Shown here: piece after piece, positions 11,424-25,854 of the stretch
How the letters are laid out: every line of letters starts with the position of its first letter
Numbering within the stretch: the stretch's first letter is position 1
Origin: Sphingobium sp.
Lineage (GTDB): Bacteria > Pseudomonadota > Alphaproteobacteria > Sphingomonadales > Sphingomonadaceae
Length of the DNA stretch: 64,000 nucleotides
Reading direction: 5' to 3'
Assembly (NCBI GenBank): GCA_023266575.1
Contig: JAHFPV010000002.1
Coordinates: forward strand, 1 to 64,000
Made by a program: the position numbers and the translations under genes
The notes under the pieces: model-generated
Seen by the model: only the letters and a program-made list of their open reading frames with translations
The model's database searches: none
Told to the model about the DNA's origin: nothing

Positions 11424-11427
11424 GATC

Positions 11428-11763
11428 TCAGTCCTGCTCGCGCGGCTTCTGGGGCCGGTTCCAGCGCAGCGACCATGCCGATTTGTCATTGGTGTTCTGG
11501 AACAGCGCGGCGCGGATCGGCTGCGCGAAGGTGGGATCGTCGATGCGCAGCGAGACGTAATCCCCGGCGCGTTCGCCGCTCTCGTTCCAGCCCGCGCCGA
11601 TCTCCGGTCCGTCGCCGTCATCGCCGCGATGGACGCGCCAGTCCGGCGCCTTCTCGGCATCGCTCGGCTCGGCCGGAACGATGGAGATGCGGATGTCGAG
11701 CATCGCGCTTTCGAGGATGCCTTCAAAGCCATTGGCGGTGCGGATGAAGCTGCCGATCTGCAT
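11428..11763 (-). CDS. DUF736 family protein
   Basis: A 111-residue protein of the DUF736 family, which is largely confined to ICEs and plasmids of alpha- and betaproteobacteria. It begins MQIGSFIRTANGFEG and contains APDWRVHRG, GAGWNESGE and DYVSLRIDDPTF, the conserved strands of the family. Function is unknown. A strong AAGGAG precedes the ATG. It lies between traF and the transglycosylase gene in the transfer operon. A second, diverged copy lies at 17186-17485. Confidence 0.88.
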   Translation of the reverse strand: MQIGSFIRTANGFEGILESAMLDIRISIVPAEPSDAEKAPDWRVHRGDDGDGPEIGAGWNESGERAGDYVSLRIDDPTFAQPIRAALFQNTNDKSAWSLRWNRPQKPREQD

Positions 11764-11798
11764 GGGAATCTCCTTTGGGTTGGCAGGGAAAAATCGGG

Positions 11799-12344
11799 TC
11801 AGCGCCAGGTGAGCGGCGCGTCGGGGGTCTGGCGGGTGAGGATCGGGATCGCGCGGCCGAGCACGGCGGACGCGCGGAGCGGCCCGAAATAGCGGCCGTC
11901 CAGGCTGTCGGGATGATCGGGATTGAGCAGCAGCAGCTCGCCCGCCGCGAGCGTGCGGCAGCCCTGCCAGACCGGCAGCGGACGGCCGATCCGGTCGCGC
12001 ATCAGCGCGACAGCGACGGGCCGTCCCTCGACGCTCACCGCGACACCGATCCGGCACACATGCTGCCCGGCCTTGGCGGCGACGTGCTTCAACAGCGGCA
12101 CGTTCCTGCCGAGATAGCCGCGCTCGGCCATCCAGCGGCCAAGCCGCTCGGGCGGCTCGACCGCGACCAACGCGCCGCGCGGCGGATCGCGGTCCGGCTC
12201 GATCCGATAGAGGCCGAGCGGCGCGCTCGCGCTGGCGTTCCAGACGACGCGCGGCAGCGGATCGGTGATCGCGATGACCGCGAACGCGCCAGCGAAAGCC
12301 GACGCGGTGATCGCTGTCGCGCGGACGTAGAAGCGGCGGGTCAT
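11799..12344 (-). CDS. traF: TraF, S26 family pilin-processing peptidase
   Basis: A serine peptidase related to signal peptidase I that trims TrbC pilin before cyclisation. In the 181-residue product, a membrane segment spans about residues 8-28. The nucleophile motif SAPLGLY places Ser40, and the general-base Lys is in PLLKHVAA (Lys86). The later GRYFGPL motif is the usual S26 box. The ATG overlaps the DUF2840 stop (ATGA); a longer in-frame extension upstream is rejected on that ground. Confidence 0.9.
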   Translation of the reverse strand: MTRRFYVRATAITASAFAGAFAVIAITDPLPRVVWNASASAPLGLYRIEPDRDPPRGALVAVEPPERLGRWMAERGYLGRNVPLLKHVAAKAGQHVCRIGVAVSVEGRPVAVALMRDRIGRPLPVWQGCRTLAAGELLLLNPDHPDSLDGRYFGPLRASAVLGRAIPILTRQTPDAPLTWR

Positions 12345-12847
12345 CCTTCGATCTCCCGGCGCTTGAGCCAGGCGCGATGTCGCTCCAACGTGTAGAGTCG
12401 CGGCTGATGTCCGGCGGCGATGCGGTTGTGGACGTGGCGCCAATGATCGGGTGCGGCGTCGCACGGATCGACACCGGCCGCTTCGGTCGCGTCGATCGCG
12501 GCCAGCACCTGTTGGACCTTGGGCCAGCCCTCGATCTTGAGCAGGATGTCGCCGCCCGGCCGCACGAACGGCAGCGTCGTGAACGGCTCACCGGCTGCGA
12601 CCGCGCGCACCACGTCGATGCGCGAGATGATCGTGCCGTAGTCGTTCGACGCCCAGCGGACGAACGCGAACACGGCGCCCGGCCGGAAGCTGACGATGCG
12701 GCGGCGGCGATCGACGATCTCGTCCTTGGCGATGCGGCCGAACCTGATCCAGTGCTCGACCCGCTTCTCGATCCAGGTCAGTTCGACGCGGGTTAGGCCG
12801 TCGCCGGTGGCGGTCGGCAGGCGCATAGGTGACGGCGGCATGATCAT
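12341..12847 (-). CDS. DUF2840 family protein
   Basis: A 168-residue soluble protein of the DUF2840 family, found almost only in alphaproteobacterial ICEs between an AlpA-like gene and traF, as here. Recognisable stretches are TWIEKRVEHWIRFGR, NDYGTIISRIDVVRA and LLKIEGWPKVQQVL. Its biochemical role is unknown. It overlaps both neighbours by four bases. An alternative ATG lies two codons downstream. Confidence 0.85.
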   Translation of the reverse strand: MIMPPSPMRLPTATGDGLTRVELTWIEKRVEHWIRFGRIAKDEIVDRRRRIVSFRPGAVFAFVRWASNDYGTIISRIDVVRAVAAGEPFTTLPFVRPGGDILLKIEGWPKVQQVLAAIDATEAAGVDPCDAAPDHWRHVHNRIAAGHQPRLYTLERHRAWLKRREIEG

Positions 12848-13110
12848 CGCCGGCTCCGGGCGATGGCCGAGTCGGCGCGCGGCATGAGGTCGTCCTGCCC
12901 CGGATCGGAGGTCGAATGCTTGATGCCGATGTCGGCCCAGGCGCGCAGGTCATCGACCGAATAGACGACGCGGCCGCCGATCCGGCGGTAGGCCGGGCCG
13001 GTCCCGAAATAGCGGTGCTTCTCCAGCGTTCGGCCCGAGAGGCCGAGAAAGCGCGCGGCTTCCGGCGTGCGCAGGAAGCGGGGCGGCAGGTTGGTGGGCG
13101 TATCGGACAA
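12844..13110 (-). CDS. AlpA-like helix-turn-helix protein (excisionase type)
   Basis: A small winged-helix DNA-binding protein of the MerR/AlpA/Xis class: the core FLRTPEAARFLGLSGRTLEKHRYFGTGP is followed by YRRIGGRVVYSVDDLRAW. Such proteins act as excisionases or activate excision genes in ICEs; the role here is inferred. The start chosen is a TTG, because AGGAG stands seven bases upstream and the product (88 residues) then has the family length. A longer reading from an upstream codon would add 39 residues of unlike composition. Confidence 0.85.
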   Translation of the reverse strand: MSDTPTNLPPRFLRTPEAARFLGLSGRTLEKHRYFGTGPAYRRIGGRVVYSVDDLRAWADIGIKHSTSDPGQDDLMPRADSAIARSRR

Positions 13111-13240
13111 GTGACGGCTCCTGCGGGCAGTGGCGGCAGGAGGCGTAAATGACAGGCCGGACGCGGCCGGGTGGGGTATGAAGATGTGCGGCTGCACGGA
13201 TCTGACCACCCCCTGCGAGGGCGCCACCGGGGCGGACGGA

Positions 13241-13864
13241 TCAGCGAATGCGGAGCAGTTTGCGGTAGTCGCCGTTCATCATCGCGATGCCGTCGCGGAC
13301 CAGGCGCACGACGAACGACCGCGAAGCGGACATCTTCCAATCGCTGGCGGACAATCTGGTCGCGTCATCACGTCCGAGCTCGACCGCGATCTGGCGATAG
13401 GTCGCCCCGCCATCGCGCAGGTCGAGCGCGCGGAGCATCAGGTCGAGCCGCGCCAGCCGGTAGGCGGTGAGCGGCCAGCCGCGCGGCAACGGCCCCGCCG
13501 CACGCCCGAACAGGCGGCGGTGGAAGCGCAGCAGGCTCGCGATGCGCGTGATGAAATCCTTGTCGAGCGGGATGACGGCGGCGAGCGGGCGACCGGGCTC
13601 CGGATCGCGCAGCCAAAGCCGATGCTCGCCGGCAGCGTCAGAGACGATGACATGGCGCCCTTCGATACCGGCCACGTCGGCGAACAGCGCGCCGAGCGCG
13701 CGCGGATCGACCGGCGCGGCACGCTCGAATCCATCCGGGGCGGCGTCGAGAATGACCGTGACGGCGGTCAGTTCCGGCCGCCAGACGACCGGCTCTGAAA
13801 GATCATCCGGCGCCGTGGCGAAAGGACAACCCCCAGCGCCGCGCGAATGCCGCCTCGGCGGCAT
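13241..13864 (-). CDS. DUF2285 (RovC-like DNA-binding) protein
   Basis: A 207-residue protein with the C-terminal DUF2285 domain, now linked to the DNA-binding region of the regulator RovC. Visible blocks include LSEPVVWRPELTAVTVILDA, LWLRDPEPGRPLAAVIPLD and a helix-turn-helix-like tail (YRQIAVELG, then KMSASRSFVVRLVRDG). It overlaps the end of the DUF6499 gene by about 60 bases, so the two look like halves of one split regulator. The start is uncertain: the ATG used has GAAGG immediately before it, which is too close. Confidence 0.75.
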   Translation of the reverse strand: MPPRRHSRGAGGCPFATAPDDLSEPVVWRPELTAVTVILDAAPDGFERAAPVDPRALGALFADVAGIEGRHVIVSDAAGEHRLWLRDPEPGRPLAAVIPLDKDFITRIASLLRFHRRLFGRAAGPLPRGWPLTAYRLARLDLMLRALDLRDGGATYRQIAVELGRDDATRLSASDWKMSASRSFVVRLVRDGIAMMNGDYRKLLRIR

Positions 13865-14045
13865 CCTTCGCGACGGCGCCGCTGGCGATGCGCTTCTGCA
13901 TCTGCGCATGTTCGGCGCGATAAGTGGGGTTTCGCCGTAGAAACTCGGCGGCGATTTCAGCGCGCCCGCTTGCATCGGACAAGCCGCCGATGCGTTGCTG
14001 GCGCCGTCCCGGCGGCATCGGCATTGCATCCTCCCAGCCGCGCAT
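13803..14045 (-). CDS. DUF6499-like N-terminal partner of the DUF2285 protein
   Basis: An 80-residue protein starting MRGWEDA and containing EFLRRNPTYRAEH, the hallmark of the short DUF6499 domain that precedes DUF2285 either as a separate gene or fused. The C-terminal KDAAEAAFARRWGLSFRH is also typical. The conserved leading half is less well matched than usual (MPMPPGRRQQRIGG), so it is a diverged copy. The ATG lacks a good ribosome site and upstream starts cannot be excluded. It probably works with the adjoining DUF2285 gene in control of the element. Confidence 0.65.
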   Translation of the reverse strand: MRGWEDAMPMPPGRRQQRIGGLSDASGRAEIAAEFLRRNPTYRAEHAQMQKRIASGAVAKDAAEAAFARRWGLSFRHGAG

Positions 14046-14178
14046 TGCGCGAATTTCGGGAGGGACAACATTGCCGCGCAGGAAGCGTCGCAATAGCGCG
14101 AAGGTTGCGCTCAACCATGCTCGGAAGGCTGCGGCGCGAACCACGAGGAAGCGCCAAAATGGATGAAATCTTAACGCT

Positions 14179-14442
14179 TTAGGGACGCTCGCAACCGAGC
14201 AGATGGGCGTAGCCAACTTCGGTCATCCACCGCGCTCGCGCGAGATGGCTGGCGTGCATGGTCTTCGCCCTATGCGGTTCGGCGGCGGCGTCGATGCCGA
14301 GAATAAGGGCGGCGACCTCGCGCCAGTCGGCGCCCTCCTCGGCCGCGTCGAGCAAGCGCAGATAGTCCGCCAAATGGCTTTCGTCATAGGCGGTGAGCTG
14401 CGATACATCCGGCGCGCGATCTGCGAAATGGCTGGTGCTCAT
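14179..14442 (-). CDS. small DUF2285-type protein
   Basis: An 87-residue acidic protein whose central part (YDESHLADYLRLLDAAEEGA, DWREVAALILGID, then HLARARWMTEVGYAHLL) matches the short helical DUF2285-like proteins found as the first gene leftward from the ICE control region. No enzymatic motif is present; a DNA-binding role is inferred. The ATG at MSTSHFAD is used because frames further upstream run into the divergent promoter region shared with the XRE gene. Confidence 0.65.
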   Translation of the reverse strand: MSTSHFADRAPDVSQLTAYDESHLADYLRLLDAAEEGADWREVAALILGIDAAAEPHRAKTMHASHLARARWMTEVGYAHLLGCERP

Positions 14443-14556
14443 GGCGCCCCCGACATGATCCTCATTAACGAACCTAGACCAAATACATGCGCCGGCTATG
14501 TGCAAGTCTCGCATCGTTCGTTGCACCTGTTGCAGCGACAAGCGCCGCCAGACCGG

Positions 14557-14596
14557 CGATACACCTTATAGGAGATAAACCGGATAGTGTGTATCG
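14557..14596. promoter_or_regulatory. inverted repeat, candidate XRE operator
   Basis: Two perfect 8-base arms, CGATACAC (14557-14564) and GTGTATCG (14589-14596), lie 32 bases apart, close to three helical turns, in the divergent region between the DUF2285-type gene and the XRE gene. A TTATAGGAGATAAAC stretch sits between them. The pattern fits autoregulation by the XRE protein encoded 15 bases downstream. Binding itself is not shown by the sequence. Confidence 0.45.
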
Positions 14597-14611
14597 TCCA
14601 GTTTGCCGCGC

Positions 14612-14839
14612 ATGGATATGCGCCGCCTCGTGGGATTGAACTTCGCCAGATTGAGGAAGGAGAAGGGCTTTACCCAGGAGCGCTTTGCCGAGACATCGGG
14701 CTTTACTCAACAATATGTAAGCGATCTGGAGCGCGGGCGACGCAATCCCACGGTCGTCACCCTGTTTCATCTGGCATCGGCGCTTGGCGTTACACCGGCC
14801 GAACTTGTCGCCGAAACCGACTTGCCTGGGGGCGACTAA
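14612..14839 (+). CDS. XRE family repressor-like regulator
   Basis: A 75-residue Cro/CI-type protein that is almost all helix-turn-helix: LRKEKGFTQERFAETSGFTQ, then YVSDLERGRRNPTVVTLFHL, then ALGVTPAELV. Such single-domain repressors commonly sit opposite the ICE operon and keep transfer genes silent; that is an inference from position. A TTG three codons upstream could also serve as start. No strong ribosome site is visible at either start, which would suit low expression. Confidence 0.85.
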   Translation: MDMRRLVGLNFARLRKEKGFTQERFAETSGFTQQYVSDLERGRRNPTVVTLFHLASALGVTPAELVAETDLPGGD

Positions 14840-14958
14840 CCTCTCCTGAGAAGCGAGCTGGGCGCCAGCCCGGCGAGCGCGCCATTGCGGCCGCGCGGAC
14901 CTTGGGACGCGCGGCCGCCGCCGATCCGGTGCAGCGGATCGGCGCGAAACGGGAAAGG

Positions 14959-14986
14959 CCGCAGGGCCGGAAACTCGGCCCTGCGG
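14959..14986. terminator. hairpin 3' of the DUF932 and XRE genes
   Basis: CCGCAGGGCCG (14959-14969) and CGGCCCTGCGG (14976-14986) form a perfect 11-bp stem with a GAAACT loop between two convergent genes. No long T-run follows on either strand, so it may be a weak or factor-assisted terminator. A second stem, CCGATCCG/CGGATCGG, lies just to its left at about 14921-14942. Confidence 0.5.
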
Positions 14987-14996
14987 TGGCGAATGC

Positions 14997-15839
14997 TCAA
15001 GCGGCTTTGAGGCGCTGCATCCCCTCGGCCAGCGTCCACAGCGCACGGTTGAGCGTCACATTCTGGTCGATGCCGTTGATCGCGCGGGTCTGACTGCGCC
15101 GGATGCGGCCCTCGGCATTGCGCTTGCGGCCATGCAGCCCGCCGCGAACGACATTCTCCTGAATGACGTTGAACGTGGTCCAGAGACTCCGGTCCACATC
15201 CTCGCGGCGGCGCGGCTCGATGATCTGGTCGGGCCGCACCGGACTTTCATCGTCGCCGTAGCGGGCGACAAGGCTCACCTCGCCAAGCAAGCGCTGTTCG
15301 TCGGGGGAAAGCTGAATCCCCTTCATGGTTTCGCTGGCGTCGATCAGCCGGGGAAAGTCCTCGGCGACGGTGTAAACGCCCTCGATAATGTCATGCTCGA
15401 TATTCCCCTTGTGCGGAACGCGGACCTCCTCGAACCGCTCGCCTGCAATCATGCTGTTGGTGCAGACGAACCGCAGCATCCCGGCGAACATCTGGTAAGC
15501 GCTGGTCCCGTCATGGCTGTTGACGATGATGACTTCGGCGGCCTCGGGCTTACCGATCCCGTCATCGCGGCGCAGGCGCAGCATGTGCTTGGCGTGGCCG
15601 TGGCGGCTGCCGTCGCGAGGAACGGACTGCACGGCGAAGAACGGAAACCATCCTTCCCGGCGCAACCCCTCCACGATGTCGATGGTGGGAACATAGACGT
15701 AGCGATCAGAACGGCTGTCGTGCGCCTCGCGGGCAAAGATGGACGGGACATGGCGATAGAGCGCCTCGTTATCGAGCGCCTCATGGCCGCTGATCTGGTG
15801 GGCGTTGCGGCCGAACCGGGTGGCGAGTTGATGGTACAT
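14997..15839 (-). CDS. DUF932 family protein
   Basis: A 280-residue protein with the DUF932 signature: SDRYVYVPTIDIVEGLRREG, RDGSRHGHAKHMLRLRR, EVIIVNSHDGTSAYQMFAG and FVCTNSMIAG. The family is frequent in plasmids, phages and ICEs, and its function is unknown. AAGGAG five bases ahead of the ATG fixes the start; in-frame sequence further upstream is Arg-rich and unlike the family. The gene faces the XRE gene and closes the conserved part of the element. Confidence 0.85.
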   Translation of the reverse strand: MYHQLATRFGRNAHQISGHEALDNEALYRHVPSIFAREAHDSRSDRYVYVPTIDIVEGLRREGWFPFFAVQSVPRDGSRHGHAKHMLRLRRDDGIGKPEAAEVIIVNSHDGTSAYQMFAGMLRFVCTNSMIAGERFEEVRVPHKGNIEHDIIEGVYTVAEDFPRLIDASETMKGIQLSPDEQRLLGEVSLVARYGDDESPVRPDQIIEPRRREDVDRSLWTTFNVIQENVVRGGLHGRKRNAEGRIRRSQTRAINGIDQNVTLNRALWTLAEGMQRLKAA

Positions 15840-16307
15840 GGCTGAACTCCTTGGGCTTGGGTTTCCGCGCAGCGGAGCGCCGCGCTGAAACCCTGCCCGT
15901 CGGCGAGACCGGGGGTGCAACCGGAGTGGGCGGCTTCGCGGGGAACCGGCTGCACGGAATGGCGAAGCCGTGGAGGAAGCTGGGCGGAAGCCGCTCCGAA
16001 GGGCGCTGGGGGCAGCGCCCCAAGCACTGCGGCGCCAAGTGGCGCCGCACGACAAATGCGCCTAAGCGGGATCAGTCCGCGTAGAAGCTGCTGAGCGACA
16101 CGAACGAACAGGGCTACACCTGCTCACCTCGAGCCACCGGGCAGATCGGGCGGAAGGCGTTCACATAGCCCGTCTAGATGAACGCGCTCAAGCAGAGCGG
16201 CAGCGCGCGCCTGTCGATGCACATGCGTGGCCGAGGAAAAGGAATAGTCGTGGGGAATGGTGAACGGGAGTGCGAGGACGAGTTGCTCGCGCTGGAGCGA
16301 GCACGCG
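15840..16307. other. 468-base gap without a convincing gene
   Basis: This stretch joins the conserved ICE genes to the cargo. It carries the promoter side of the DUF932 gene. From 16178 a 48-codon plus-strand frame begins (MNALKQSGSARLSMHMRGRG), which I cannot assign. Several short frames on both strands look like fragments, but none is recognisable. A recombination scar from cargo insertion is possible. Confidence 0.4.
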
Positions 16308-17117
16308 ATGAAAGACGCTGACGCGGCAGTCCGCAACCCTATCCCGGCCTTCGCTGCTGGCGGCGTGATTGGCACGCTCGGCGGGCTCATCGGTCTCGGT
16401 GGGGCTGAGTTCCGGCTGCCCCTGCTGGTGGGGCTGTTCGGCTTTCCGGCGCTCGAAGCGGTCATCCTGAACAAGGCGATGAGCCTGATAGTTGTGGCGA
16501 CGGCGCTTCCGTTCCGCACCGGCACCGTGCCGTTCGCCGAAATCGCCACGCACTGGCCGGTCATCGTCAACCTGCTCGCTGGCAGCATCGCAGGCGCCTG
16601 GTTCGGGGCGGGTTGGGCGATCGGGCTCAAGCCCGAAACGCTGCACCGGATCATCGGTGTTCTGCTGGTCCTGATCGCGTTGGCGCTGGCATTCGGTCAC
16701 GGCCTCACCGGCGGCCATGCGCTGGTGGCGAACGACTTAGTGCGGATCGCAGCCGGCATCCTGGCCGGGTTCGCGATCGGCATCGTCGCTGCTTTGCTCG
16801 GGGTCGCTGGCGGCGAGTTGCTGATTCCGACTCTGATCCTGTTGTTCGGGCTCGATGTGAAGCTCGCCGGCAGCCTGTCGCTCGCGATCAGCCTGCCCAC
16901 GATGATCGCCGGGTTCGCGCGCTATAGCCGCGACCGTAGCTTCGCCGTGATCGGCCGGTATCGCATGTTCGTCATCGTCATGGCGCTCGGCTCGATTCTC
17001 GGCGCTTTCATCGGGGGGCGGCTTCTCGGGATCGTGCCTGAAGCCGTGCTGATGCCACTGCTGGCGACGATCCTCATCTTGTCCGCCGCCAAGATGCTTC
17101 TCCACCGTCGGCACTGA
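16308..17117 (+). CDS. TauE/SafE family sulfite/anion exporter-like permease
   Basis: A 269-residue integral membrane protein with about eight hydrophobic segments and the internal duplication of the TauE/SafE family: the first half has GGVIGTLGGLIGLGGAEFRLP, the second AALLGVAGGELLIPTLILLF. The family exports sulfite, sulfoacetate or other organic anions; the substrate here cannot be read from sequence. The ATG (MKDADAAV) has a GGAG about 11 bases upstream. It is the only plus-strand cargo gene in its neighbourhood and is followed by two strong hairpins. Confidence 0.85.
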   Translation: MKDADAAVRNPIPAFAAGGVIGTLGGLIGLGGAEFRLPLLVGLFGFPALEAVILNKAMSLIVVATALPFRTGTVPFAEIATHWPVIVNLLAGSIAGAWFGAGWAIGLKPETLHRIIGVLLVLIALALAFGHGLTGGHALVANDLVRIAAGILAGFAIGIVAALLGVAGGELLIPTLILLFGLDVKLAGSLSLAISLPTMIAGFARYSRDRSFAVIGRYRMFVIVMALGSILGAFIGGRLLGIVPEAVLMPLLATILILSAAKMLLHRRH

Positions 17118-17122
17118 TCCGT

Positions 17123-17177
17123 CCCTCTCTGGCGGCGAGCCGCCGAGAGGGAAACGCCCCGCCGGAGGGCGGGGCGT
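17123..17177. terminator. paired hairpins between convergent genes
   Basis: The first hairpin pairs CCCTCTC with GAGAGGG around a GGCGG/CCGCC inner stem (17123-17151). The second pairs ACGCCCCGCC (17154-17163) with GGCGGGGCGT (17168-17177). They start a few bases after the TauE/SafE stop and end nine bases before the stop of the converging DUF736 gene, so they can serve both directions. Confidence 0.65.
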
Positions 17178-17185
17178 CGCGTCGC

Positions 17186-17485
17186 TCAGCGCGACCAGAT
17201 GAGTGCATATTCGCCGGCGGTGTCGGTCTCGCTCAGGGTGGCGTAGATCGGCGCCGGGAAGCTCGGATCGTCCAGCTTGATCGAGATGTAATCGCGGTTC
17301 TCGCGGCTGGTCTTCTTCCATCCCGCGCCGCATTCGACCGAGCCGACCGCGAGGCGGTAATCGGGCGCCTTGTCGCTTTCCTTGTCGATCGGCCGGAGGG
17401 TCGCCTTGGCGTTGAGGGTCAAGGTCTTGACGGTTCCGGTGAAGGAGCCGTTGCTTGCCTGGGTGAAGGTGCCGATGGTGGCCAT
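17186..17485 (-). CDS. second DUF736 family protein
   Basis: A 99-residue DUF736 protein ([55 protein letters not shown] pattern). It shares the family framework with the copy at 11428-11763 but is clearly diverged, so it is not a recent duplicate. AAAGGAA precedes the ATG. Unlike the first copy it stands alone, apart from the transfer operon. Function is unknown. Confidence 0.85.
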
Positions 17486-17731
17486 GTCGTAGTTCCTTTC
17501 GCTTTCGGGCCACGACCGCCGCGGCCTCGATGGCGATCGGTGAAGCGGGGATGATCGGACGCGCACCGCTTGCGGCCAGAGCGCAGCGGAGATAGAGCGG
17601 CGGTCCCGCAGGGAGGCGCCAAACCGCCTTTCAAATGCTGAACGCCATCAGTGAAGCAACGATGATGAATCGGCATCGCTTCATGCAGCCCTTGCTCTTT
17701 CCGGAGTAAATGAGGCTGCTATTTTGGGCCG

Positions 17732-17998
17732 ATGTCTTTCAAGCGATTCACCGCCGAACTGCCGACCCAACTTGCTGCGAGGGTCGATGCAATCGCCGCC
17801 TGCAACGGCATGACACGCGATGAAGCCGTGCAGCAGGCATTGCAAACATGGCTGCTGCACGATGAAGAGGAGAGGCACCGCATGACATGGGAAGGACTGG
17901 ACGACGTCGATGCGGGCCGCGTGGTCTCCCACGACGCCATCCAAGAGCATGTCGGCGCTTTGCTACATGGACGATCCTCGGGCCGAGGGCCGGTGTAA
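17732..17998 (+). CDS. CopG/ribbon-helix-helix protein, antitoxin-like
   Basis: An 88-residue protein: the N-terminal KRFTAELPTQLAARVDAIA, followed by GMTRDEAVQQALQTWL, is a ribbon-helix-helix dimerisation and DNA-binding fold, and the tail GLDDVDAGRVVSHDAIQEHV is the element usually seen in CopG-type antitoxins that pair with ParE/RelE toxins. The next gene overlaps its stop codon (TAATG) but does not encode a recognisable ParE. Low-complexity ends are absent, and the gene looks intact. Confidence 0.75.
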   Translation: MSFKRFTAELPTQLAARVDAIAACNGMTRDEAVQQALQTWLLHDEEERHRMTWEGLDDVDAGRVVSHDAIQEHVGALLHGRSSGRGPV

Positions 17999-18222
17999 TG
18001 AAGCGCCGGGCCAAGCGCCGGTTGCCGCGCGGGTGGGCGAAGGGGCTGACGTTCCCGCCGGATGAGCCGAAAAATCCGCCGCTGCGTCGCCGGAAGGATG
18101 ATGGTCCGATCGTCGTGACCGACGACTGGCCCGAAGAGATTCCGATCGGTGACGACGAACTGCGGGTCATCGAACGCTACATGCGAAGCGAGCTGGACGA
18201 TCTGTTCGGGCCGCTGCCCTAA
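17998..18222 (+). CDS. 74-residue protein of unknown function coupled to an RHH gene
   Basis: Starts in a TAATG overlap with the preceding ribbon-helix-helix gene, so it is translationally coupled. The product has a very basic N-terminal half (MKRRAKRRLPRGWAKGLTFP) and an acidic C-terminal half (DDWPEEIPIGDDELRVIERY and on to LDDLFGPLP). No family is recognised and the ParE/RelE fold is not apparent. By position it could be a toxin or an accessory factor of a two-gene module; that is inference only. Confidence 0.6.
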   Translation: MKRRAKRRLPRGWAKGLTFPPDEPKNPPLRRRKDDGPIVVTDDWPEEIPIGDDELRVIERYMRSELDDLFGPLP

Positions 18223-18253
18223 GGTGCACAACCTTGCAGTTTTGCGCGTCATC

Positions 18254-18268
18254 GACTGACATGCAGTC
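18254..18268. promoter_or_regulatory. short inverted repeat upstream of fitA-like gene
   Basis: GACTG (18254-18258) and CAGTC (18264-18268) are separated by ACATG, 20 bases ahead of the FitA-like start. FitA/VapB proteins bind inverted repeats that overlap their own promoters, so this is a candidate operator. The arms are only five bases long, so chance is possible. Confidence 0.3.
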
Positions 18269-18288
18269 ATTGACTTATGGAGGTCAGC

Positions 18289-18537
18289 ATGGCGGTGATA
18301 ACGATCCGAAACATCGACGACGCGATCGAGAAGCGGCTGCGCGTGCGCGCCGCGATCAACGGCCACTCTATGGAGGACGAAGCGCGCGACATCTTGCGCT
18401 CAGCGCTTTCGACCGATGATCCGCGCCCCCGCAATCTCGCGCAAGCGATCCATCGGCGCTTCGGTCCGCTCGGCGGTGTCGAGCTTCCCGAGACGCCCCG
18501 CGAGGCCATCCAGCGGCCGGTGAACTTTGGCGAATGA
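18289..18537 (+). CDS. FitA/VapB-type antitoxin
   Basis: An 82-residue antitoxin with an N-terminal ribbon-helix-helix (MAVITIRNIDDAIEKRLRVR, then NGHSMEDEARDILRSAL) and a C-terminal toxin-binding tail (NLAQAIHRRFGPLGGVELPE). GGAGG lies seven bases before the ATG used; an earlier in-frame ATG overlaps that ribosome site. Its stop overlaps the start of the toxin frame in ATGA. The gene is intact, although the toxin frame after it is broken. Confidence 0.85.
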   Translation: MAVITIRNIDDAIEKRLRVRAAINGHSMEDEARDILRSALSTDDPRPRNLAQAIHRRFGPLGGVELPETPREAIQRPVNFGE

Positions 18538-18932
18538 TCGTCCCCGGCATCAACGTCATCTCCGAGCTGATGCGGCGCGAGCCCGACGCAGCGGTGATCG
18601 CGTGGATCGGGCAGCGACCGACGGAGGGCGCTTCACCACGACATTGACGCAGGCGGAAATCTTCTATGGCTTGGCGCTGCCGCCCGAAGACCGCCGTCGG
18701 GACGCGCCGATGGTGGCCGCGCTGCCGATGTTCGAGGTCGATCTGGCCGGGGGGCTATCGTTCGATAGCGGTGCCACCTTGGCCTATCCTGACATCGCGG
18801 CGCCAGCGCGGCGCACGGTTAGCGATTCGCAATGTCATCGACTTGACCGATTGCGGCATCGCGGTGGTAAACCCTTGGACAGAGACATGGACTGCGCCGC
18901 CGTCCGTTCTTATCTGCGCTGCCCGGCACTAG
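18534..18932 (+). pseudogene. decayed FitB/VapC PIN-domain toxin
   Basis: The frame opens MIVPGINVISELMRREPDAA, matching the FitB/VapC start, but the catalytic Asp expected in the usual LDTNV motif is Gly here. Near 18625-18635 the reading shifts to another frame (FTTTLTQAEIFYGLALPPED). Near 18800-18812 it shifts back (GARLAIRNVIDLTDCGIAVV, ending NPW). The segment between the last two parts, which normally holds the second acidic cluster (a DAQIAA-like motif), is missing. With a lost catalytic residue, two shifts and a deletion it cannot make an active RNase. Confidence 0.85.
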
Positions 18933-19060
18933 GCGAATCCGCCGAGACCGCCCCGTTCAATTTGGCCTATTGTGCCATTCGCCGTCCTACACGCCGCCGA
19001 CGGCGGATGCGCTCATCCCCGTCGTCGGCGAGTATATCGACTTTCAGGCCATGCCTCCGG

Positions 19061-20167
19061 TTAAGCCAGTAGTTCAAGCTCTTCATCGCCTGGCCATTCT
19101 GGATCAAAGAATTTCTGGTCGTCTCCATGTTCGACGAAAATGCCGTTAAACCCGCTCGTTGCGGTGCGGAAACTGTCGCAGATGGCATCGGCGAGTCCGC
19201 GTCGATCCATGCCGAGCGTAACCGTGACGCTGTAGATGGCGGAGGCTTTGGAATCGCACCAGATTGTGGAGACACGTAGCCGCACGTCATCAGGCATTGC
19301 GTCCACGACGGCCTTCATCGTCTGCAATTCATGTGCGACCGAGTAGCGGCTCTGGAGGAGAACCCCTCGATGCTCCAGTTCATCGTAGGGGACCTTGGGG
19401 CCAGCATCGCGCCATTCGATCCCCTCTTGATGGGCGAGCGCGGCGGCCAGATCGTCGTCCATCTGCTCATAGTCGACCGGCGGTGTCTGCGGCGCTCCCC
19501 ATTGCGACGCCCGGCGCAGAATCTCTGTGTGCAGTTCCGAGTCATCCGCGATCTGGACCGTCGTCATGTTCTTCTCGACCACCAAGATGCCGGCATCGAC
19601 CAGCGAGTGCAGGGCGACATCGAAATTCGGATCGCGCGCGAGGTTGGGCAGTATCGATACAGGCGTTCCCTCGAAGGTCAGCCATAGCCGTTTGGGATCA
19701 AGCTTAGGCGTGAAGCCGGAACCGCCTTCGACATTCAGCAGCATTCCCGAGATGATCGCAAGGCGCAGACGCTGCCCCGGACCCGAACCAGGCCGCAGCA
19801 ACGATGCGTTCGCCCGAAGGACGATCTCAAGACTGAGCGCATAGGGAAGGACATCGCGCACCCACAGGTCTGAGGGTGTCAGCGCTCCCTTACTCTTCTG
19901 ATCGAGAGAAGCCGATACCGGACGATGGCAAGCCTGCGGCAGCGCCTTGATCAGATTCCCCCAATAATCATACGGACTGGCCGCGCCCTGCCGCTGACCG
20001 ATCCGGGCGTTGAGATCGTGCCAACTGCGATAGCCACCCGCCACAGCGACGGCATTCTGGCATTCGGACAGCGGAAAAATCATCGCGCTGGCCTGGAGGA
20101 GGCGCTTGAGCTGCTTGGCGCACTTCTTGGCGCCATCGAGAGTGGAGTACATCGTCGCATCCTTCAT
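19061..20167 (-). CDS. unknown protein with N-terminal GYxxWHDL motif
   Basis: A 368-residue soluble protein. Residues about 12-55 hold GAKKCAKQLKRLLQ and then LSECQNAVAVAGGYRSWHDL, a short helical module seen at the N-termini of many otherwise unrelated alphaproteobacterial proteins. The rest is not recognised: it contains WLTFEGTPVSILPNL, an acidic QMDDDLAAALAHQEG stretch and an acidic tail. No membrane segment or catalytic motif is evident. A second ATG five codons in (MYSTLDGA) has the better ribosome site, AAGGA. It is a lone gene between the toxin remnant and the methylase cassette. Confidence 0.7.
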   Translation of the reverse strand: MKDATMYSTLDGAKKCAKQLKRLLQASAMIFPLSECQNAVAVAGGYRSWHDLNARIGQRQGAASPYDYWGNLIKALPQACHRPVSASLDQKSKGALTPSDLWVRDVLPYALSLEIVLRANASLLRPGSGPGQRLRLAIISGMLLNVEGGSGFTPKLDPKRLWLTFEGTPVSILPNLARDPNFDVALHSLVDAGILVVEKNMTTVQIADDSELHTEILRRASQWGAPQTPPVDYEQMDDDLAAALAHQEGIEWRDAGPKVPYDELEHRGVLLQSRYSVAHELQTMKAVVDAMPDDVRLRVSTIWCDSKASAIYSVTVTLGMDRRGLADAICDSFRTATSGFNGIFVEHGDDQKFFDPEWPGDEELELLA

Positions 20168-20413
20168 TCCGGCCTTGAAGATGCGCTGCTCATCTCTCTA
20201 GCGGCCGAATAAAGTTGCGGTCACAACAGAGCAAAATTCGTTGGATCAACGATCCTTCGCCAAGGCAGCGGCCGCGCCGACGATAGCGGCGCACGCCAGA
20301 AACTACGCCGGTCCATTCAAATTGCAATACCGGACCCGCGACGATGAGCGCGGTGCGGGCTGAGGATCGTCGAATAGGACCAAGTTCGGCACGACCGGGC
20401 CATCCTCCATCGA

Positions 20414-20866
20414 TCAGGGGGCTGCCGAGCGCGCGCCTACTTCAATCGCTTTGAGCTCACTTCGGGCCGCATCGACGAACGCGCATTTCGCCGCGAAGTG
20501 ATCGCCGTCCTCCCCGCTGCTTTCTCTGCCGTTGGCTGAAAGCGCCAAATCGCAAACTCGCTTCGCGCACTGCTGCACGGCATCGGTGGAGAGAAGGGAT
20601 ATCTCCGCGTAGAGCGCAAGCAACGGCGTGACGTTGTCGATCGACTTCGAACCGGCCCCTGCGACGAGCAGCACATTGCGGTCCGCTTCCGCGATGAACT
20701 TCGCGTAGAGCCGTTGCCGTTCCAACAGGCGCTCGCGGACAAGCCCAAGCTTCCACTCATGCGAGCGCATCCCGCGCCCTGCGACATAGCTCGCGATACC
20801 GGCGATCAGGGCGGCGCCGAGCGACGCGATGATAGGGATAAGAAACTGTGCGGAAGACGCTGTCAT
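20414..20866 (-). CDS. small membrane-anchored protein of the methylase cassette
   Basis: A 150-residue protein with one N-terminal hydrophobic segment (about residues 7-30, FLIPIIASLGAALIAGIASY), then a long charged helix (KLGLVRERLLERQRLYAKFI) with coiled-coil character and a helical C-terminal part. No family is named with confidence. It begins only 13 bases after the stop of the PD-(D/E)XK-like gene and reads in the same direction, so it is likely the last gene of that transcript. A GGGGG stretch precedes the ATG. Confidence 0.65.
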   Translation of the reverse strand: MTASSAQFLIPIIASLGAALIAGIASYVAGRGMRSHEWKLGLVRERLLERQRLYAKFIAEADRNVLLVAGAGSKSIDNVTPLLALYAEISLLSTDAVQQCAKRVCDLALSANGRESSGEDGDHFAAKCAFVDAARSELKAIEVGARSAAP

Positions 20867-20879
20867 AATGCGGCCCCCA

Positions 20880-21650
20880 TCAGTCGCGAACCCCGGATTG
20901 TGGTAACGCCTTCTCTATGAGCTCAACCTTTGCGATCTTCTTCCGCGATCTAGCGGACCGCTGGCTGGAGACGGAATAGCCGAATTCCAGAAAGAAATGT
21001 GCGACCCTGATCGTCCCATGGATCGGTGCGAGATGCGCGTCCCGGTCATGTTCGGTGTCGAAATCAGCGGCGGGAAACATCGTCGAAGGGGCCTCAAAAG
21101 CGCCGCCCGTCGGTGACGGTCTCAGCCGAAGAGTTGTCGATCGGGCCGCGTTGGACAACTCTTCGCACAGCGGCGTCAGCACATCGTGCTTGGGATCGGT
21201 CAGCATAGCGACCATCGCGGCGACAGCTTCCCCGCGCGCGTAGATGCCGGTCACGAAGCGGCCCAGACCCTTGTCGCCAAGATAATGATCCCGGTCGGCC
21301 TTGAAGCGGCTCATCTTCTTGAACTCGAATACCAACGCAACGGATTGAGTGGTGGTGTTGAAGCTGTAGACGATATCAGTCCGTCGCTCCTCTTGAACCT
21401 CCGCCGTTTCGAGATCCATTTCCAGAATGACATTCTCGGCGGACCAGTGGCCGAGCAGACCACGGCGCCGGCCCGTCACCAACTCAGCATGGGTCTTCAG
21501 CGCCTTTGTGAGCACGGGTTCATGAAGTTTCGGATGGAAGCCTGGCTTTTGGTGAGCGGCAAGCGTGGACCAACTCTCCATTAGCGCGTCAACCGCCTCG
21601 GTCGCGCTTTGGAGAGGAAATGCCGTTAGCCAGTCGGATGTGCCAGTCAC
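20880..21650 (-). CDS. PD-(D/E)XK nuclease-like protein of the methylase cassette
   Basis: A 256-residue protein starting at a GTG that overlaps the methylase stop (GTGA); the reading further upstream lies inside the methylase gene. Around residues 91-112 the sequence TDIVYSF is followed by VALVFEFKKM, giving Asp92, Glu109 and Lys111 in the spacing and strand pattern of a PD-(D/E)XK nuclease core, with an upstream helix carrying Glu. This fold assignment is by eye. The C-terminal half has no recognised domain. It is probably the effector or restriction partner of the neighbouring methylase, but that is inferred. Confidence 0.6.
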   Translation of the reverse strand: MTGTSDWLTAFPLQSATEAVDALMESWSTLAAHQKPGFHPKLHEPVLTKALKTHAELVTGRRRGLLGHWSAENVILEMDLETAEVQEERRTDIVYSFNTTTQSVALVFEFKKMSRFKADRDHYLGDKGLGRFVTGIYARGEAVAAMVAMLTDPKHDVLTPLCEELSNAARSTTLRLRPSPTGGAFEAPSTMFPAADFDTEHDRDAHLAPIHGTIRVAHFFLEFGYSVSSQRSARSRKKIAKVELIEKALPQSGVRD

Positions 21651-24600
21651 GCAGGCACTCGCTTCGATGGAGAAGGGTCGGCCGCCACGCGCTGCACTGT
21701 GCGGACCATCTGCTCGGCGTCGCGTAGCGCATGGCGAACGGTCCAACTTCGGCGGGCGAGCGGGCGTACGAGATAGAGATCGCCGCCGTTCCATATCTGC
21801 GTGTCAGGAACTAGTTGCATAGCATCGCCCGACGGGATGACCGTCAGCCCAGCCTCACGAAGCTGCGCAACGGTGGCAAGCACCAGCGCGTCATCTATCT
21901 GGCTGCGGTCCAGAACAGGTTTATCAGTCACGTCCGGGCGATACCGCACGCGCACGATGCCGAGCGGTCCCGCCCGGCTTGGTTCGCTCGCCATCACGCC
22001 GACCTCGAACTGCCCCTGACCCCCCATCCGTTCTCGCCACTCGGTCAATGCGCGACCGAGCGTGCGGGCGTAGGCATCGAGGTCGCCATGAGCGAGCCGA
22101 AGTTGCGCCAGCTCGCGCATCCGCTTGAAGCCGCGCGGACGGATCGCCGGCATCAGCTTGTCGACCGTCTCGCGCACCAATTCCTTCTCGGTCGCGCCGA
22201 GATCGAAGAAATTGAAGACATGCTCGTCGAGCGTCGCCTGGTCGGCTTCGTAGCGTGCCGCTTGCTGCAATTCGGGTACGCTCTCCAGCGCGATCAACCA
22301 GTCGCTGATGGCCTGCATCGCGACGAGCGCCTTGGAGGGATCAGGAGCCATCTCGGGGCGGAAGAAGGGGAAGGTCTCGACATCCTTGAGATGGACGCCG
22401 TTCCGTTCCGCGAGCATCTTCCATGCGCGCATCATCAGGAAATAGCGGGCGAGGCTTGAGCGCAGATAGATGGTTGCAAAGCGGAGCAAGGGGGCATCGA
22501 CAGACGCCCCGGAGATCACGCCGACGCTGTGGGTGAAGCTCGCAGGTTTATCGAAGAAAACGGCGCGAATCGATAACTCCGCGCGCGAGAAGCCGTCCGG
22601 GAACAGCACACGGGGCCCGTCGAACACCGACATCAGGCTGTCGTTCAGCCCGACGACGGTCGTGCGCGAAGGGGGCCAGGCACTAAGGCGATCGGGATGG
22701 AGCACTGGTGCGCCGGTGCGCAGCGCCTCAATCGGAACATGCTTCATGTTCTTGAGCCGGTCAGCGCTTTCCGGTGTGCGGCTCTTGTCTTCGAGATGCA
22801 CGCCTTTCCGGTTGACCCATTGCCGGAATTCCTGCGGGCCTTTCCAGAGGTCGCCAAACGAGCCAAGCGCACTGAGCCGCGACCAAAGAGACAGATCGTT
22901 TGCGTCGCCCCACATATAGGTGATGAGACGTTGAGGGTCCTGCGCGATCGACCTCGTATCGAGGAAATGGCGATCAGCGGTCTGCATGGTGAGACGACCG
23001 AACGCCAGGCTGAGATCGGCTTTGGGCACGCAATAGTCGAAGCTTTCGCCGTGCGGGATGCGTGTTGCCCGGATTCGTTCTACGCCGTCGTCGCGGGATT
23101 CGGCTGCGGGCCGCGCTGTCCCGACAAACAAATGGCATGTGTTCGCCGCGGTCGGGAACAGGAGCTGCTGAAGATCGCCGAAATTGATCAACCGGAGCGG
23201 CTTAACACGTTCGAGAAATTCGCTGACAAAGACCGCGCTGGACGCGCCGAGGAATTGCCCGATCGGGAGGATGAGGCAGATCTTGCCGCCGCCCTCGACG
23301 AAGTCGAGCGCACGCATGGCGAACGCCCCGGCGATCTGCCGTCGCACGAAGGGAATATCGGTCGATTCGGCCCAGACGTCCGCACTGGTCTTCACATCGC
23401 CGGGGGGCTCAGTCCAAGGCGGGTTCGACAGGATCAGCGTGAAGCGCTTCCCCGTGAAACCGTGCTTCGGACTGAACAGGTCGCCAGTTGCGCCATAGAA
23501 GAGATTGGTCTGCTTGAGCGACGGAAGCTTGACCTGCTCGCGCTCCTGGGCGGTGAGGATGTCCGCGGGATCGAGACCTTCAAGCACCGAGAGATAGAGG
23601 CTGAACGCCGTCACTCGGCATGCCATCTCGTTGATGTCGGCACCGAAGATCTGGCGCTGCAGCAGTTCGCCGCGTTCCTTGAAACCGAGCTGGCGGCCGG
23701 AAATCGCCTCCGCATGGGCGAGCAGCCGGCGAAAAGCGGTGGTGAGCAGAATACCCGACCCGCACGCGCCATCGAAAATCCGTTCTGCCAGCGGGTTGTC
23801 CGAAAGCGCCAGGACCTGTTCGACCGCCAGCATCGCAAGGTGCCGGGGCGTATAATATGCGCCGTCACGCTCCTGCTGCTCGTCGGAGAGCAACTCCTCG
23901 TAGAGGCCCGACAGCAACTCGACCGGAATGTAGCTAAAGTCGTAATTCCAGAATGATCCCTGGCCGGTGCGCATGTTGGTGCGTCGCAGGAACGAATCGA
24001 GCGTTAGGAAACCTTTGCTGTCGAGTTCCGACCAGGGATCGTGGCGATCGTCCCCCAGGAAGTCGCCGTTGAAGTCCTGTCGCAGGCAATCGATCAGCTT
24101 GATGATGCCGTCCCGGTCGCTGGCCGTGACAAGTTCATGGAGGGAGGTCACGCCGCGCCGCTTCCGATAGTGTGCGCCGACGATCTGACGATGTTCGAGA
24201 TAGGAGATGAAAAGTATTTGCCCCATCAGCAGTTCGGCGAGACGGCGCCAGAGCCGCTCGCGTTGTTCGGGGTCTAGATCGTCCCGCTGCTTGAAGCCTT
24301 CTTCCGCCAGGATTTCCACGGCAGCCGAGAGATTTTCCAAGAGTTTGCGATCGACGCGGGCGCGCAACTCGAACCATTTGGGTAGGCGCTCAGAGAGATT
24401 CGCCGATGCGACCTCCAGTGCCGAAAAGGGGCCATCGGGGGCCGCCTCGGCGAGCGTCAGACGCTCCTGTGCATTCTTGAGGCGCCGGACCGGTAAGGCG
24501 ACGGCGGTGTCGCCGCGCACATCGATCACGACGGTGGCGAGGTTCTGGTTCCAGATGCGCTGGCGGATAGTGTCGAGCTGGTCGCGCGACAGCGGCTGAT

Positions 24601-24805
24601 CCTCGCGGGAGACGAACACGACCGCAGGCACGCCTTCGACATCGAAGACTGCGCGCGCGCCGATCGCCCCGTCGTCGCTCAGCATCGCGCGTAGTTCGAG
24701 CGCGTAAGGGTGCGTGTCCGGGACGTCGTCGGTCCGCAGATGCAGTTGCGCCGGCTCGGCCGAATAGCCGAGGCGGTCGAGCCAACCCTGCAGCATCTCG
24801 CTCAT
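21647..24805 (-). CDS. Eco57I-type N6-adenine DNA methylase, large
   Basis: A 1052-residue SAM-dependent DNA methylase. Motif I (DGACGSGILL) is at about 345-354 after GAYYTPRHLA, and the catalytic motif IV is SNPPW at 460-464. This marks an N6-adenine methylase of the Eco57I class. The N-terminal 110 residues contain VPAVVFVSREDQP and IRQRIWNQNLATVVID, a module that often precedes such methylases in defence loci. The C-terminal 500 residues probably hold target recognition. No clear nuclease motif is seen inside it. Four-base overlaps join it to the regulator gene before it and the PD-(D/E)XK-like gene after it. Confidence 0.88.
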   Translation of the reverse strand: MSEMLQGWLDRLGYSAEPAQLHLRTDDVPDTHPYALELRAMLSDDGAIGARAVFDVEGVPAVVFVSREDQPLSRDQLDTIRQRIWNQNLATVVIDVRGDTAVALPVRRLKNAQERLTLAEAAPDGPFSALEVASANLSERLPKWFELRARVDRKLLENLSAAVEILAEEGFKQRDDLDPEQRERLWRRLAELLMGQILFISYLEHRQIVGAHYRKRRGVTSLHELVTASDRDGIIKLIDCLRQDFNGDFLGDDRHDPWSELDSKGFLTLDSFLRRTNMRTGQGSFWNYDFSYIPVELLSGLYEELLSDEQQERDGAYYTPRHLAMLAVEQVLALSDNPLAERIFDGACGSGILLTTAFRRLLAHAEAISGRQLGFKERGELLQRQIFGADINEMACRVTAFSLYLSVLEGLDPADILTAQEREQVKLPSLKQTNLFYGATGDLFSPKHGFTGKRFTLILSNPPWTEPPGDVKTSADVWAESTDIPFVRRQIAGAFAMRALDFVEGGGKICLILPIGQFLGASSAVFVSEFLERVKPLRLINFGDLQQLLFPTAANTCHLFVGTARPAAESRDDGVERIRATRIPHGESFDYCVPKADLSLAFGRLTMQTADRHFLDTRSIAQDPQRLITYMWGDANDLSLWSRLSALGSFGDLWKGPQEFRQWVNRKGVHLEDKSRTPESADRLKNMKHVPIEALRTGAPVLHPDRLSAWPPSRTTVVGLNDSLMSVFDGPRVLFPDGFSRAELSIRAVFFDKPASFTHSVGVISGASVDAPLLRFATIYLRSSLARYFLMMRAWKMLAERNGVHLKDVETFPFFRPEMAPDPSKALVAMQAISDWLIALESVPELQQAARYEADQATLDEHVFNFFDLGATEKELVRETVDKLMPAIRPRGFKRMRELAQLRLAHGDLDAYARTLGRALTEWRERMGGQGQFEVGVMASEPSRAGPLGIVRVRYRPDVTDKPVLDRSQIDDALVLATVAQLREAGLTVIPSGDAMQLVPDTQIWNGGDLYLVRPLARRSWTVRHALRDAEQMVRTVQRVAADPSPSKRVPA

Positions 24806-25317
24806 CGCCCGGCTGCCTTAGCTCTTGCAGGCATGGCCGGCGAAGCGGCCGTGTCACGCACCGCGCGGACCGGAAACAATTCAAGCTGGCCTTCGCGGCG
24901 CACAGGTGATGGCAGGGCAAAGCCCTCGCGGAGGATATCGAGATGTTGATCGAGACCGAGGATGAGGGCGTCTTCGCCAGACGCCGGGGTATCGCCGGCG
25001 CCCAGCAACTCCCAACGATCATTGCCATAAAAGGCGATACGTCGCCCCCACAGCGCAATGAACGAAGTGCCCTTCAGTGTCTGGCGCAGGCTGTCGAACA
25101 GGTCCTTGTGCCCCTGCAGCTCAATGCGGAACTGGCGATGCAGCGTCGTTGCCAAGCGGAGGACAAGGATCGTCTGCCAGCTATATTGCGCCGGCGCACC
25201 CTTGCGACCAGGCCGTTCGTCTGCCGGAATGAGCGCGCGCCGAACCGTCCATTCCCGTAGCAGGTCAATGGAAAGGCCGGTCAGGCGGCTGGCAACTGGC
25301 GTAGCGACATAATTCAT
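24802..25317 (-). CDS. MerR-like regulator of the methylase cassette
   Basis: A 171-residue protein with an N-terminal winged-helix of the MerR type (SRLTGLSIDLLREWTVRRAL, then YSWQTILVLRLATTLH) and a C-terminal part rich in Leu and Arg with no recognised ligand-binding domain. It is the first gene of the cassette and overlaps the methylase start by four bases. The ATG used is one codon after a TTG. Two matching palindromes lie 13-60 bases upstream, so autoregulation is likely. Confidence 0.75.
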   Translation of the reverse strand: MNYVATPVASRLTGLSIDLLREWTVRRALIPADERPGRKGAPAQYSWQTILVLRLATTLHRQFRIELQGHKDLFDSLRQTLKGTSFIALWGRRIAFYGNDRWELLGAGDTPASGEDALILGLDQHLDILREGFALPSPVRREGQLELFPVRAVRDTAASPAMPARAKAAGR

Positions 25318-25329
25318 CAAACGGCCTAA

Positions 25330-25387
25330 ATCGGGTATCGTGCCCGATCTCCCCCGAGAACGGGTACTCTACCCGATGTCCCGGGTA
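25330..25387. promoter_or_regulatory. twin 19-bp palindromes, candidate cassette operator
   Basis: Two sites share the layout 8-3-8: ATCGGGTA-TCG-TGCCCGAT at 25330-25348 and AACGGGTA-CTC-TACCCGAT at 25359-25377. Each has one mismatch between arms, and together they give a consensus ATCGGGTA-N3-TACCCGAT. Their centres are 29 bases apart. A third half-site, CGGGTA, follows at 25382-25387. They sit directly ahead of the MerR-like gene. Confidence 0.65.
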
Positions 25388-25854
25388 AAGCGGCTTCGTG
25401 CGGCCTCGGCCGATGAACCTCTCCGAACGCCGCCAATTTGAGGACATACTCGGCCATTCTCGCAAGCCGACACGGGTTGATCCATACGGTGTTCCGCTCC
25501 ATTGACGAAGCGGTGCTTGGCTCGGCGACTGCCTAGCGGAGCTACCTTCGATGGGGCTTTTGTGAAGCGTCTCCGGCAACGCTAGGATGAAGGGCTGCCT
25601 AGGGCCCGCTACCACGCAGTTGCGATGGAAATGGTGATTACCGGGTGATTGCAACGATGAAAATCCCCACGGGATTCTCCGGAAATTCCGTTTTGATATC
25701 AATGCAATGTTACGATTTTGTCTCTGAGGTCTGGTACTTCCGCTACCGGCGTAAATGAATCCTCCCCTGCAAGGGGAGGTGGCAGGGCAAAGCCCTGACG
25801 GAGGGGTGTCACCCTCTCGTTCAGGCAACAGCCAACACGCTAACTTTACCCTGA
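25388..25854. other. gene-free junction between cargo and chromosome
   Basis: No convincing gene is seen. The left part borders the cassette operator and the right part carries chromosomal-type repeats, including a hairpin pairing CCTCCCCT (25761-25768) with AGGGGAGG (25772-25779) and a small AGGGC-AAA-GCCCT stem at 25784-25796. If the element ends on this side, its attachment site should lie here; no target gene such as a tRNA is visible. Confidence 0.45.

Follow-up and report, generated by a model that had tools for sequence, protein, structure and literature searches.

The 64,000-nucleotide stretch of Sphingobium sp. DNA analysed here (the window, contig 25 of a 3.6-Mb genome) carries, in a row and all on the minus strand, four open reading frames (ORFs) encoding a MerR-like protein, a 1052-aa methylase (M), a 256-aa protein (R) and a 150-aa protein. 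An earlier note on this DNA had described a four-gene methylase cassette in which three genes overlap by 4 bp each and the fourth follows 13 bases later, and these coordinates were confirmed: the overlaps lie at 24802-24805 (regulator/M) and 21647-21650 (M/R), and a 13-bp gap separates R from the 150-aa gene. The R ORF has a GTG start, and its frame stays open further upstream, up to 304 aa. We concentrate on the module formed by M and R with an optional MerR-like gene in front, which we regard as a probable restriction-modification (R-M) system. Its features in the window are the following.

24802..25317, minus strand: MerR-like regulator, controller-like (ATG start; 25320 with a TTG start)
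21647..24805, minus strand: M, gamma-class N6-adenine DNA methylase, 1052 aa, with a probable C-terminal specificity region (from Pfam, PADLOC and AlphaFold2)
20880..21650, minus strand: R, most likely a PD-(D/E)XK-like nuclease subunit, 256 aa (from conserved D/E/K residues, AlphaFold2, weak Foldseek matches and the neighbourhood of M)
25362..25374, no strand: operator-like palindrome GGGTACTCTACCC, distal copy, its position upstream of the regulator gene kept
25333..25345, no strand: operator-like palindrome with one mismatch, proximal copy, 29 bp away from the distal one

The methylase M and the small protein R

M matches the Pfam families N6_Mtase and Eco57I, and the PADLOC profile PDLC03623 (REase_MTase_IIG, 'Type IIG restriction enzyme-methyltransferase') covers nearly all of it (821.6 bits). 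In an alignment of 43 chosen rows, every M is matched by PDLC03623 and keeps NPPW, and motif I reads DGACGSG in 38, DPACGSG in 4 and DPAAGAG in 1; M thus has motifs I and IV of a gamma-class adenine methylase, as Type IIG enzymes do. The AlphaFold2 model of M, with a predicted local distance difference test (pLDDT) of 85 and a predicted template-modelling score (pTM) of 0.85, has CamA and M.BseCI as its closest folds in the Protein Data Bank (PDB), followed by BrxX/PglX, BpuSI, DrdV and MmeI. Profiles of PglX match M far below their cut-offs, and BrxX matches it as a distant fold relative only.

The same-chain cleavage domain of Type IIG enzymes, usually of the PD-(D/E)XK kind and N-terminal, appears to be missing from M as far as the motif search reaches: neither the 43-row nor a 36-row alignment shows a D..[ED]-x-K conserved at 90%, and a cleavage domain of a non-PD-(D/E)XK kind in M is possible. 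A profile of the N-terminal 125 residues matched no PDB chain by sequence and had no link to R (hhalign probability 2.6); with no conserved motif either, the idea of a live or dead nuclease in this domain was rejected. The earlier note had asked whether M might be a solitary Type IIG enzyme: PADLOC does file it as Type IIG, yet M is not solitary and carries no conserved nuclease motif.

In the third protein the earlier note had seen an Asp-x16-Glu-x-Lys pattern of the PD-(D/E)XK type, and D92-x16-E109-x-K111 is indeed present in R and kept in 56 of 56 aligned sequences. The alignment holds 56 of 64 sequences (the window and 63 complete copies, which measure 210-256 aa), L015, L017, L018, L030, L031, L051, L058 and L072 being left out as (presumed) near-duplicates. 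Taken alone the pattern is weak, with D-x16-E-x-K arising in 4.9% and D-x(8-30)-[DE]-x-K in 70% of 20,000 shuffles of R, and it gains weight only because all 56 relatives keep it. Invariant throughout the alignment are E44, T48, D92, E109, K111, Y123, G128, R131, Y137 and M146, and D..E-x-K can also be read by eye in three more distant plasmid R proteins.

The AlphaFold2 model of R (pLDDT 87, pTM 0.82) shows, in order, a helix (44-62), three strands (68-79, 84-98 and 103-113), two helices (117-124 and 130-134) and a strand (143-150), a topology that, judged by eye and with weak Foldseek support, fits the alpha-beta-beta-beta-alpha-beta core of the PD-(D/E)XK superfamily. BamHI chains came top in Foldseek comparison with the PDB (E 0.017-0.044 for the best seven, probability <=0.90, TM-score ~0.3), with SwaI, FokI, MspJI and AddAB lower down, and the best viral structure match, at a weak E of 1.2e-3, is an annotated PD-(D/E)XK nuclease. 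The catalytic residues of BamHI, D94, E111 and E113, have the same spacing as D92/E109/K111 of R. By sequence, the 56-row profile of R reached a best E of 0.11 against the PDB, and an 11-row profile matched protein A constructs (E 1.1e-7 over 32 profile positions), no stretch passing alone; both were dismissed as noise. PADLOC matched one R in 56, marginally (AbiEi at 5e-4), and in the database records opened R is annotated either as hypothetical or as 'Fis family transcriptional regulator'. The structure check proposed in the earlier note thus returned a nuclease-like predicted fold with weak structure matches; with the D..(E/D)-x-K active-site signature of the superfamily in 56/56 R, conservation and model together suggest that R is most likely a PD-(D/E)XK-like nuclease.

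Pairing and distribution of M and R

Scanning genome contigs with a four-row M alignment yielded 55 loci, among them near-duplicates (L016-L018; L029-L032 with L051; L045, L046 and L058) and the locus carrying the window's own block (L015). R lies directly downstream of M in 52/52 of those whose contig continues beyond M, although in L041 R is itself cut by the contig end; the three loci without a testable downstream region are L061 and L063, where the contig ends inside M, and L069, whose frame terminates 41 bp short of the contig end. M and R overlap by 4 bp in 46 of the 52, R start codons having been picked by script as those nearest to a 4-bp overlap. The gene order is widespread and not, as the earlier note had allowed, unique to one genome. 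By record titles the hosts are Alpha-, Beta- and Gammaproteobacteria, plus single loci from metagenome-assembled genomes labelled Nitrospinia and Chloroflexi, possibly through misbinning.

Plasmids gave the same picture: an R-like gene follows M in 13/13 opened loci, even at 23-25% M identity. These 13 represent 25 plasmid records in which M is matched at 1e-20. One Pseudosulfitobacter record of 12 and one Agrobacterium record of two were opened singly, and by coordinates R adjoins M in all 12 Pseudosulfitobacter records. One of the plasmids, pRSB223 (IncP; L007), carries the module next to a class 1 integron. Among viral-collection contigs we found three loci, with R beside M in L070 and L072, while none of the phage records matched M at 1e-10 or R at 0.01.

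Searching from the other side, an R profile found 6 of 398 phylum-sample genomes and 10 of 94 genus genomes, 15 of them distinct. M sequence lies directly upstream in 14 of the 15 (two of these matches being weak, E 7e-4 and 1.5e-4), and in the fifteenth the R match starts at the contig end; a single R sequence as query found 3/100 relatives and 1/385 class-sample genomes (the window's own). An exception to the pairing is L008, which has a fragment of R only, without M. Across 43 loci the identities of M and R rise and fall together (r = 0.966; 0/1000 permutations as high).

At a few loci M is damaged and R is not. On Pseudosulfitobacter plasmids (L006, 10351-12675) an in-frame fusion has ~38 regulator residues followed by the C-terminal half of M, keeping M model positions 523-1019 and lacking motifs I and IV; a single operator-like site (9/10) precedes the fusion and R is intact. 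L006 represents 12 plasmid records with the same match, probably one event. In L007 (two frames in the record), L010 and L050, M is split into several frames and R is open, and these frame breaks are possibly sequencing errors. Cells like these should not survive a nuclease that acts on its own, so an intact R without a working M favours an M-dependent R, and these sequences suggest that R needs M.

Flanking genes were scanned as 138 of 148 chosen ORFs at 31 of 32 loci, the 10 left out being mostly the longest, plus the MerR-like gene of L053 and one L042 ORF; 81 Pfam and 220 PADLOC families were matched. Among the 25 listed for each are GajA/Old-like and AbiL-like ATPases, with several profiles falling on the same 3-4 proteins, as well as Mrr and HipA; the flanks also hold conjugation and metabolic genes. 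Nearby defence-type genes, which the earlier note had advised scoring, are thus seen in some flanks, and this is suggestive only, as no background rate is available for comparison.

Regulator, promoter palindromes and carrying element

A homologue of the regulator stands upstream of M in 40/55 genome loci. As in the earlier note, the gene can be called no more than MerR-like, because the Pfam MerR_1 match is below the gathering score (16.7 bits versus 21.6); against the PDB by sequence the regulator found one designed protein only (E 0.013). The earlier suggestion of a restriction-type unit with a dedicated regulator is supported. L053 has another, weakly MerR-like gene upstream, most of the remaining loci without a homologue (L069 not included) yielded no convincing upstream regulator, in more distant members on plasmids this position is taken by XRE-like or unnamed small proteins, and L097 has no gene annotated there.

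The promoters of the MerR-like genes carry GGGTAnnnTACCC-like palindromes, in many cases two of them ~30 bp apart. Taking one promoter per regulator at <80% identity (n=27, drawn from 45 promoter rows, or 46 if the window copy is counted beside L015) and scoring a site at >=8/10 matching bases, we found at least one site in 27/27 promoters as opposed to 155/7783 control windows, and a pair 29-31 bp apart in 19/27 promoters (15 exactly 30 bp) as opposed to 0/7783 controls. In the window, a one-mismatch search of all 64 kb gave no site besides the two promoter copies; 0.32 sites would be expected by chance, and two or more occurred in 2/100 shuffles. A small helix-turn-helix (HTH) regulator with repeated palindromes in its own promoter, as expected of C-protein-type control, is found here by sequence. 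By analogy with RptR and C proteins, two sites about three turns apart suggest cooperative binding and autoregulation.

The module sits in a cargo block of a larger, probably conjugative element; the features of both are these.

17573..25754, no strand: 8.2-kb cargo block, 99.9% identical in Sphingobium sp. CECT 9361 (L015)
20414..20866, minus strand: 150-aa protein with a hydrophobic N-terminus, element cargo probably outside the conserved module (among L001-L072, homologues only in own genome and the identical block L002/L015)
1878..17566, minus strand: conjugation/backbone genes, namely VirB4/TrbE-like, type IV secretion ATPase, VirD4, DUF3363 relaxase, SLT, DUF736 and DUF932 (10 ORFs scanned)

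The same 8.2-kb block occurs with identical coordinates in an own-genus genome (G043), and the window and CECT 9361 genomes diverge at both of its ends. Genes beside the block encode VirB4/TrbE-like, T2SSE-type ATPase, VirD4, DUF3363 relaxase, SLT and DUF736 proteins. Together with the divergence at both ends, these conjugation genes support carriage by an element like an integrative and conjugative element (ICE), in agreement with the earlier note. Near the right end of the element, at 25726-25741, lies GGAAGTACCAGACCTC, of which a one-mismatch copy is present on another contig of the same genome (C26:43860-43875, L093), between tyrosine-integrase-like and TrmB-like ORFs (gene names by eye); the two are possible attachment (att) sites of the ICE. 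Nearby are a TauE/SafE permease gene (16257-17117) on the plus strand, opposite to the conjugation genes around it, a FitA-like antitoxin gene at 18277-18537 and, as block cargo, a 368-aa protein (19061-20167) with a weak, sub-threshold N-terminal match to Glyoxalase_8.

The fourth gene of the row, for which a hydrophobic N-terminal stretch can be recognised by eye, had been taken for a membrane partner. Homologues at E <=1e-3 among loci L001-L072 and the window are confined to its own genome and the identical block, which does not support a four-gene cassette: as a module partner the 150-aa gene was rejected, being found at no non-identical locus, and it is probably a neighbour only.

PADLOC matched 40 families with 61 chosen window ORFs, and the 25 of 40 listed include none of HsdR, HsdS, BrxC and PglZ. 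To this extent only the earlier list of missing defence genes holds; helicase- and nuclease-type families were matched, namely BrxHI (1e-26), REase_II (4e-21), DpdF and DrmD (1e-10), along with mad8. The output does not assign matches to individual ORFs; these are perhaps housekeeping helicases and nucleases, and the four cassette proteins match none of these families except via the methylase.

Interpretation and comparison with known systems

We favour, and consider probable, a two-chain R-M system related to Type IIG that consists of the methylase M, a separate nuclease R and an optional MerR-like switch. M would carry its own specificity region and mark host DNA by adenine methylation, and R, made from the next gene, would cut DNA without M's mark, presumably restricting incoming phages. 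Most likely R has little or no sequence specificity of its own and would have to dock on M before cleaving. M would then supply recognition for methylation and cleavage alike, as in a split Type IIG enzyme that lacks both motor and ATPase. Where present, the MerR-like protein would bind the GGGTAnnnTACCC palindromes before the operon, often a pair about three helical turns apart, and control expression of its own gene as well as of M and R in the manner of the C protein of other R-M systems.

Several observations weigh against this model. No curated profile calls R a nuclease (Pfam 0/56 and NCBIfam 0/56 at 0.01), its Foldseek PDB matches are weak, with none <=0.001 and unrelated proteins mixed in, and in size R is comparable to those Type IIP enzymes that can recognise DNA unaided. 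The lock-step divergence of M and R is explicable by linkage alone, and one of the three viral contigs, from IMG/VR, has M without R (L071, 5998-8832, an M of the same family with a different C-terminus). The L006 argument is confounded, since R could be unexpressed or inactive on these plasmids, or protection could come from another methylase. As to control, 15/55 genome loci have no MerR-like homologue (L041 beginning at a contig edge), which makes the switch optional; 8/27 promoters have no spaced pair; and the palindrome motif was derived from two promoters, those of the window and L005, both of which (the window as L015) are among the 27 related promoters in which it was then counted.

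The most serious alternative, to which we give a clearly smaller but substantial weight, is an ordinary two-enzyme Type II system whose M and R recognise the same site independently, as with BamHI or AhdI. The size of R (210-256 aa), which is that of a classic Type IIP enzyme, its nearest, weakly matching PDB fold (BamHI) and the resemblance of M to the stand-alone gamma methylases CamA and M.BseCI all speak for it, whereas loci with a broken M and an open R (L006, L007, L010 and L050) would be unexpected unless R is silent or the cell otherwise protected, and the near lock-step divergence also tells against it, though linkage alone could suffice. We think it quite improbable that M is a single-chain Type IIG enzyme, as PADLOC has it, with R a constant but dispensable neighbour: PDLC03623 in 43/43 M and a length of ~1000 aa would fit, but M has no conserved D..[ED]-x-K, its N-terminal 125-residue profile matches neither a PDB chain nor R, and R is present in 52/52 testable genome loci.

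A very improbable reading makes R a helper of the methylase, such as a stabiliser or repair factor, with the pair serving epigenetic regulation. It would account for the persistence of R on plasmids whose M has lost its core and for the silence of Pfam, NCBIfam and PADLOC about R as a nuclease; the D, E and K invariant in 56/56 point instead to a working metal-dependent nuclease site, and the pair travels on plasmids and an ICE-like element, in some cases flanked by defence-type genes (no background rate). Scarcely credible, finally, is the BREX-like defence unit with a membrane partner proposed in the earlier note. Four genes do stand in a row in the window and M is distantly related to PglX/BrxX, but the fourth gene has no counterpart in L001-L072 beyond identical loci, the 25 of 40 PADLOC families listed for the 61 window ORFs include neither BrxC nor PglZ, and PglX stays far below its cut-offs, with BrxX only a distant fold relative.

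Returning to the two-chain system, we are evenly divided on whether it constitutes a distinct restriction class, in which a complete gamma methylase with fused specificity region (M~S) recruits a small, non-autonomous PD-(D/E)XK subunit under MerR-like control with its own operator code; many 'single-chain Type IIG' proteins (PDLC03623 and kin) would in that case be half of a two-gene system. If the two-chain model is right, the defence-database reading would be corrected, the nuclease of these 'Type IIG' systems having been overlooked. The system would also offer a simple two-protein model of how marking and cutting share or split recognition, and its MerR-like controller, with a clear candidate operator, could be used to study the entry of such systems into hosts via ICEs and plasmids. 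A partial literature search, with REBASE and most subscription papers outside it, found no description of the M-R gene pair.

Among known systems, the module is like Type IIG (Eco57I, BpuSI) and MmeI/DrdV (Type IIL) in its gamma methylase of ~1000 aa and its match to PDLC03623, and BpuSI, MmeI and DrdV are related to M in fold. Reviews (PMC4081073, PMC3874165) define Type IIG by the union of cleavage and methylation domains in one polypeptide, whereas the only conserved nuclease-type site found in the module lies on a second chain. As far as checked, the module is therefore no single-chain Type IIG enzyme, yet it may well work like one. With BREX it shares a methylase of the related gamma fold, as PglX/BrxX, and differs in containing no other BREX gene, the PglX matches being far below cut-off; and no module protein matches either the HsdR motor-nuclease or the separate HsdS of Type I R-M systems.

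In its control the module resembles C-protein Type II systems such as Esp1396I, Csp231I and Kpn2I, which have a small HTH regulator gene and operators in front. The C proteins of these three are XRE/HTH_3-like, while the module regulator is MerR-like; AhdI, too, is under C-protein control. RptR, the repressor of a Type I R-M island, is likewise encoded by the first gene of its operon and has repeated palindromes in its own promoter, according to PMC12255303; this likeness is one of description and not of protein comparison, and RptR differs in its short TAGCTA repeats and in belonging to a Type I system.

AhdI itself (Type IIH, 'Type 1 1/2') is comparable in having a gamma methylase and a separate nuclease, and is described in PMC4081073 and PMC3874165 as possessing separate M and S and a Type IIP-like nuclease. 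There M is split from S, whereas in the module M and S are apparently fused and R stands apart. If the module is indeed a distinct class, without translocase or ATP, it would invert the AhdI arrangement and connect Type I with Type IIG.

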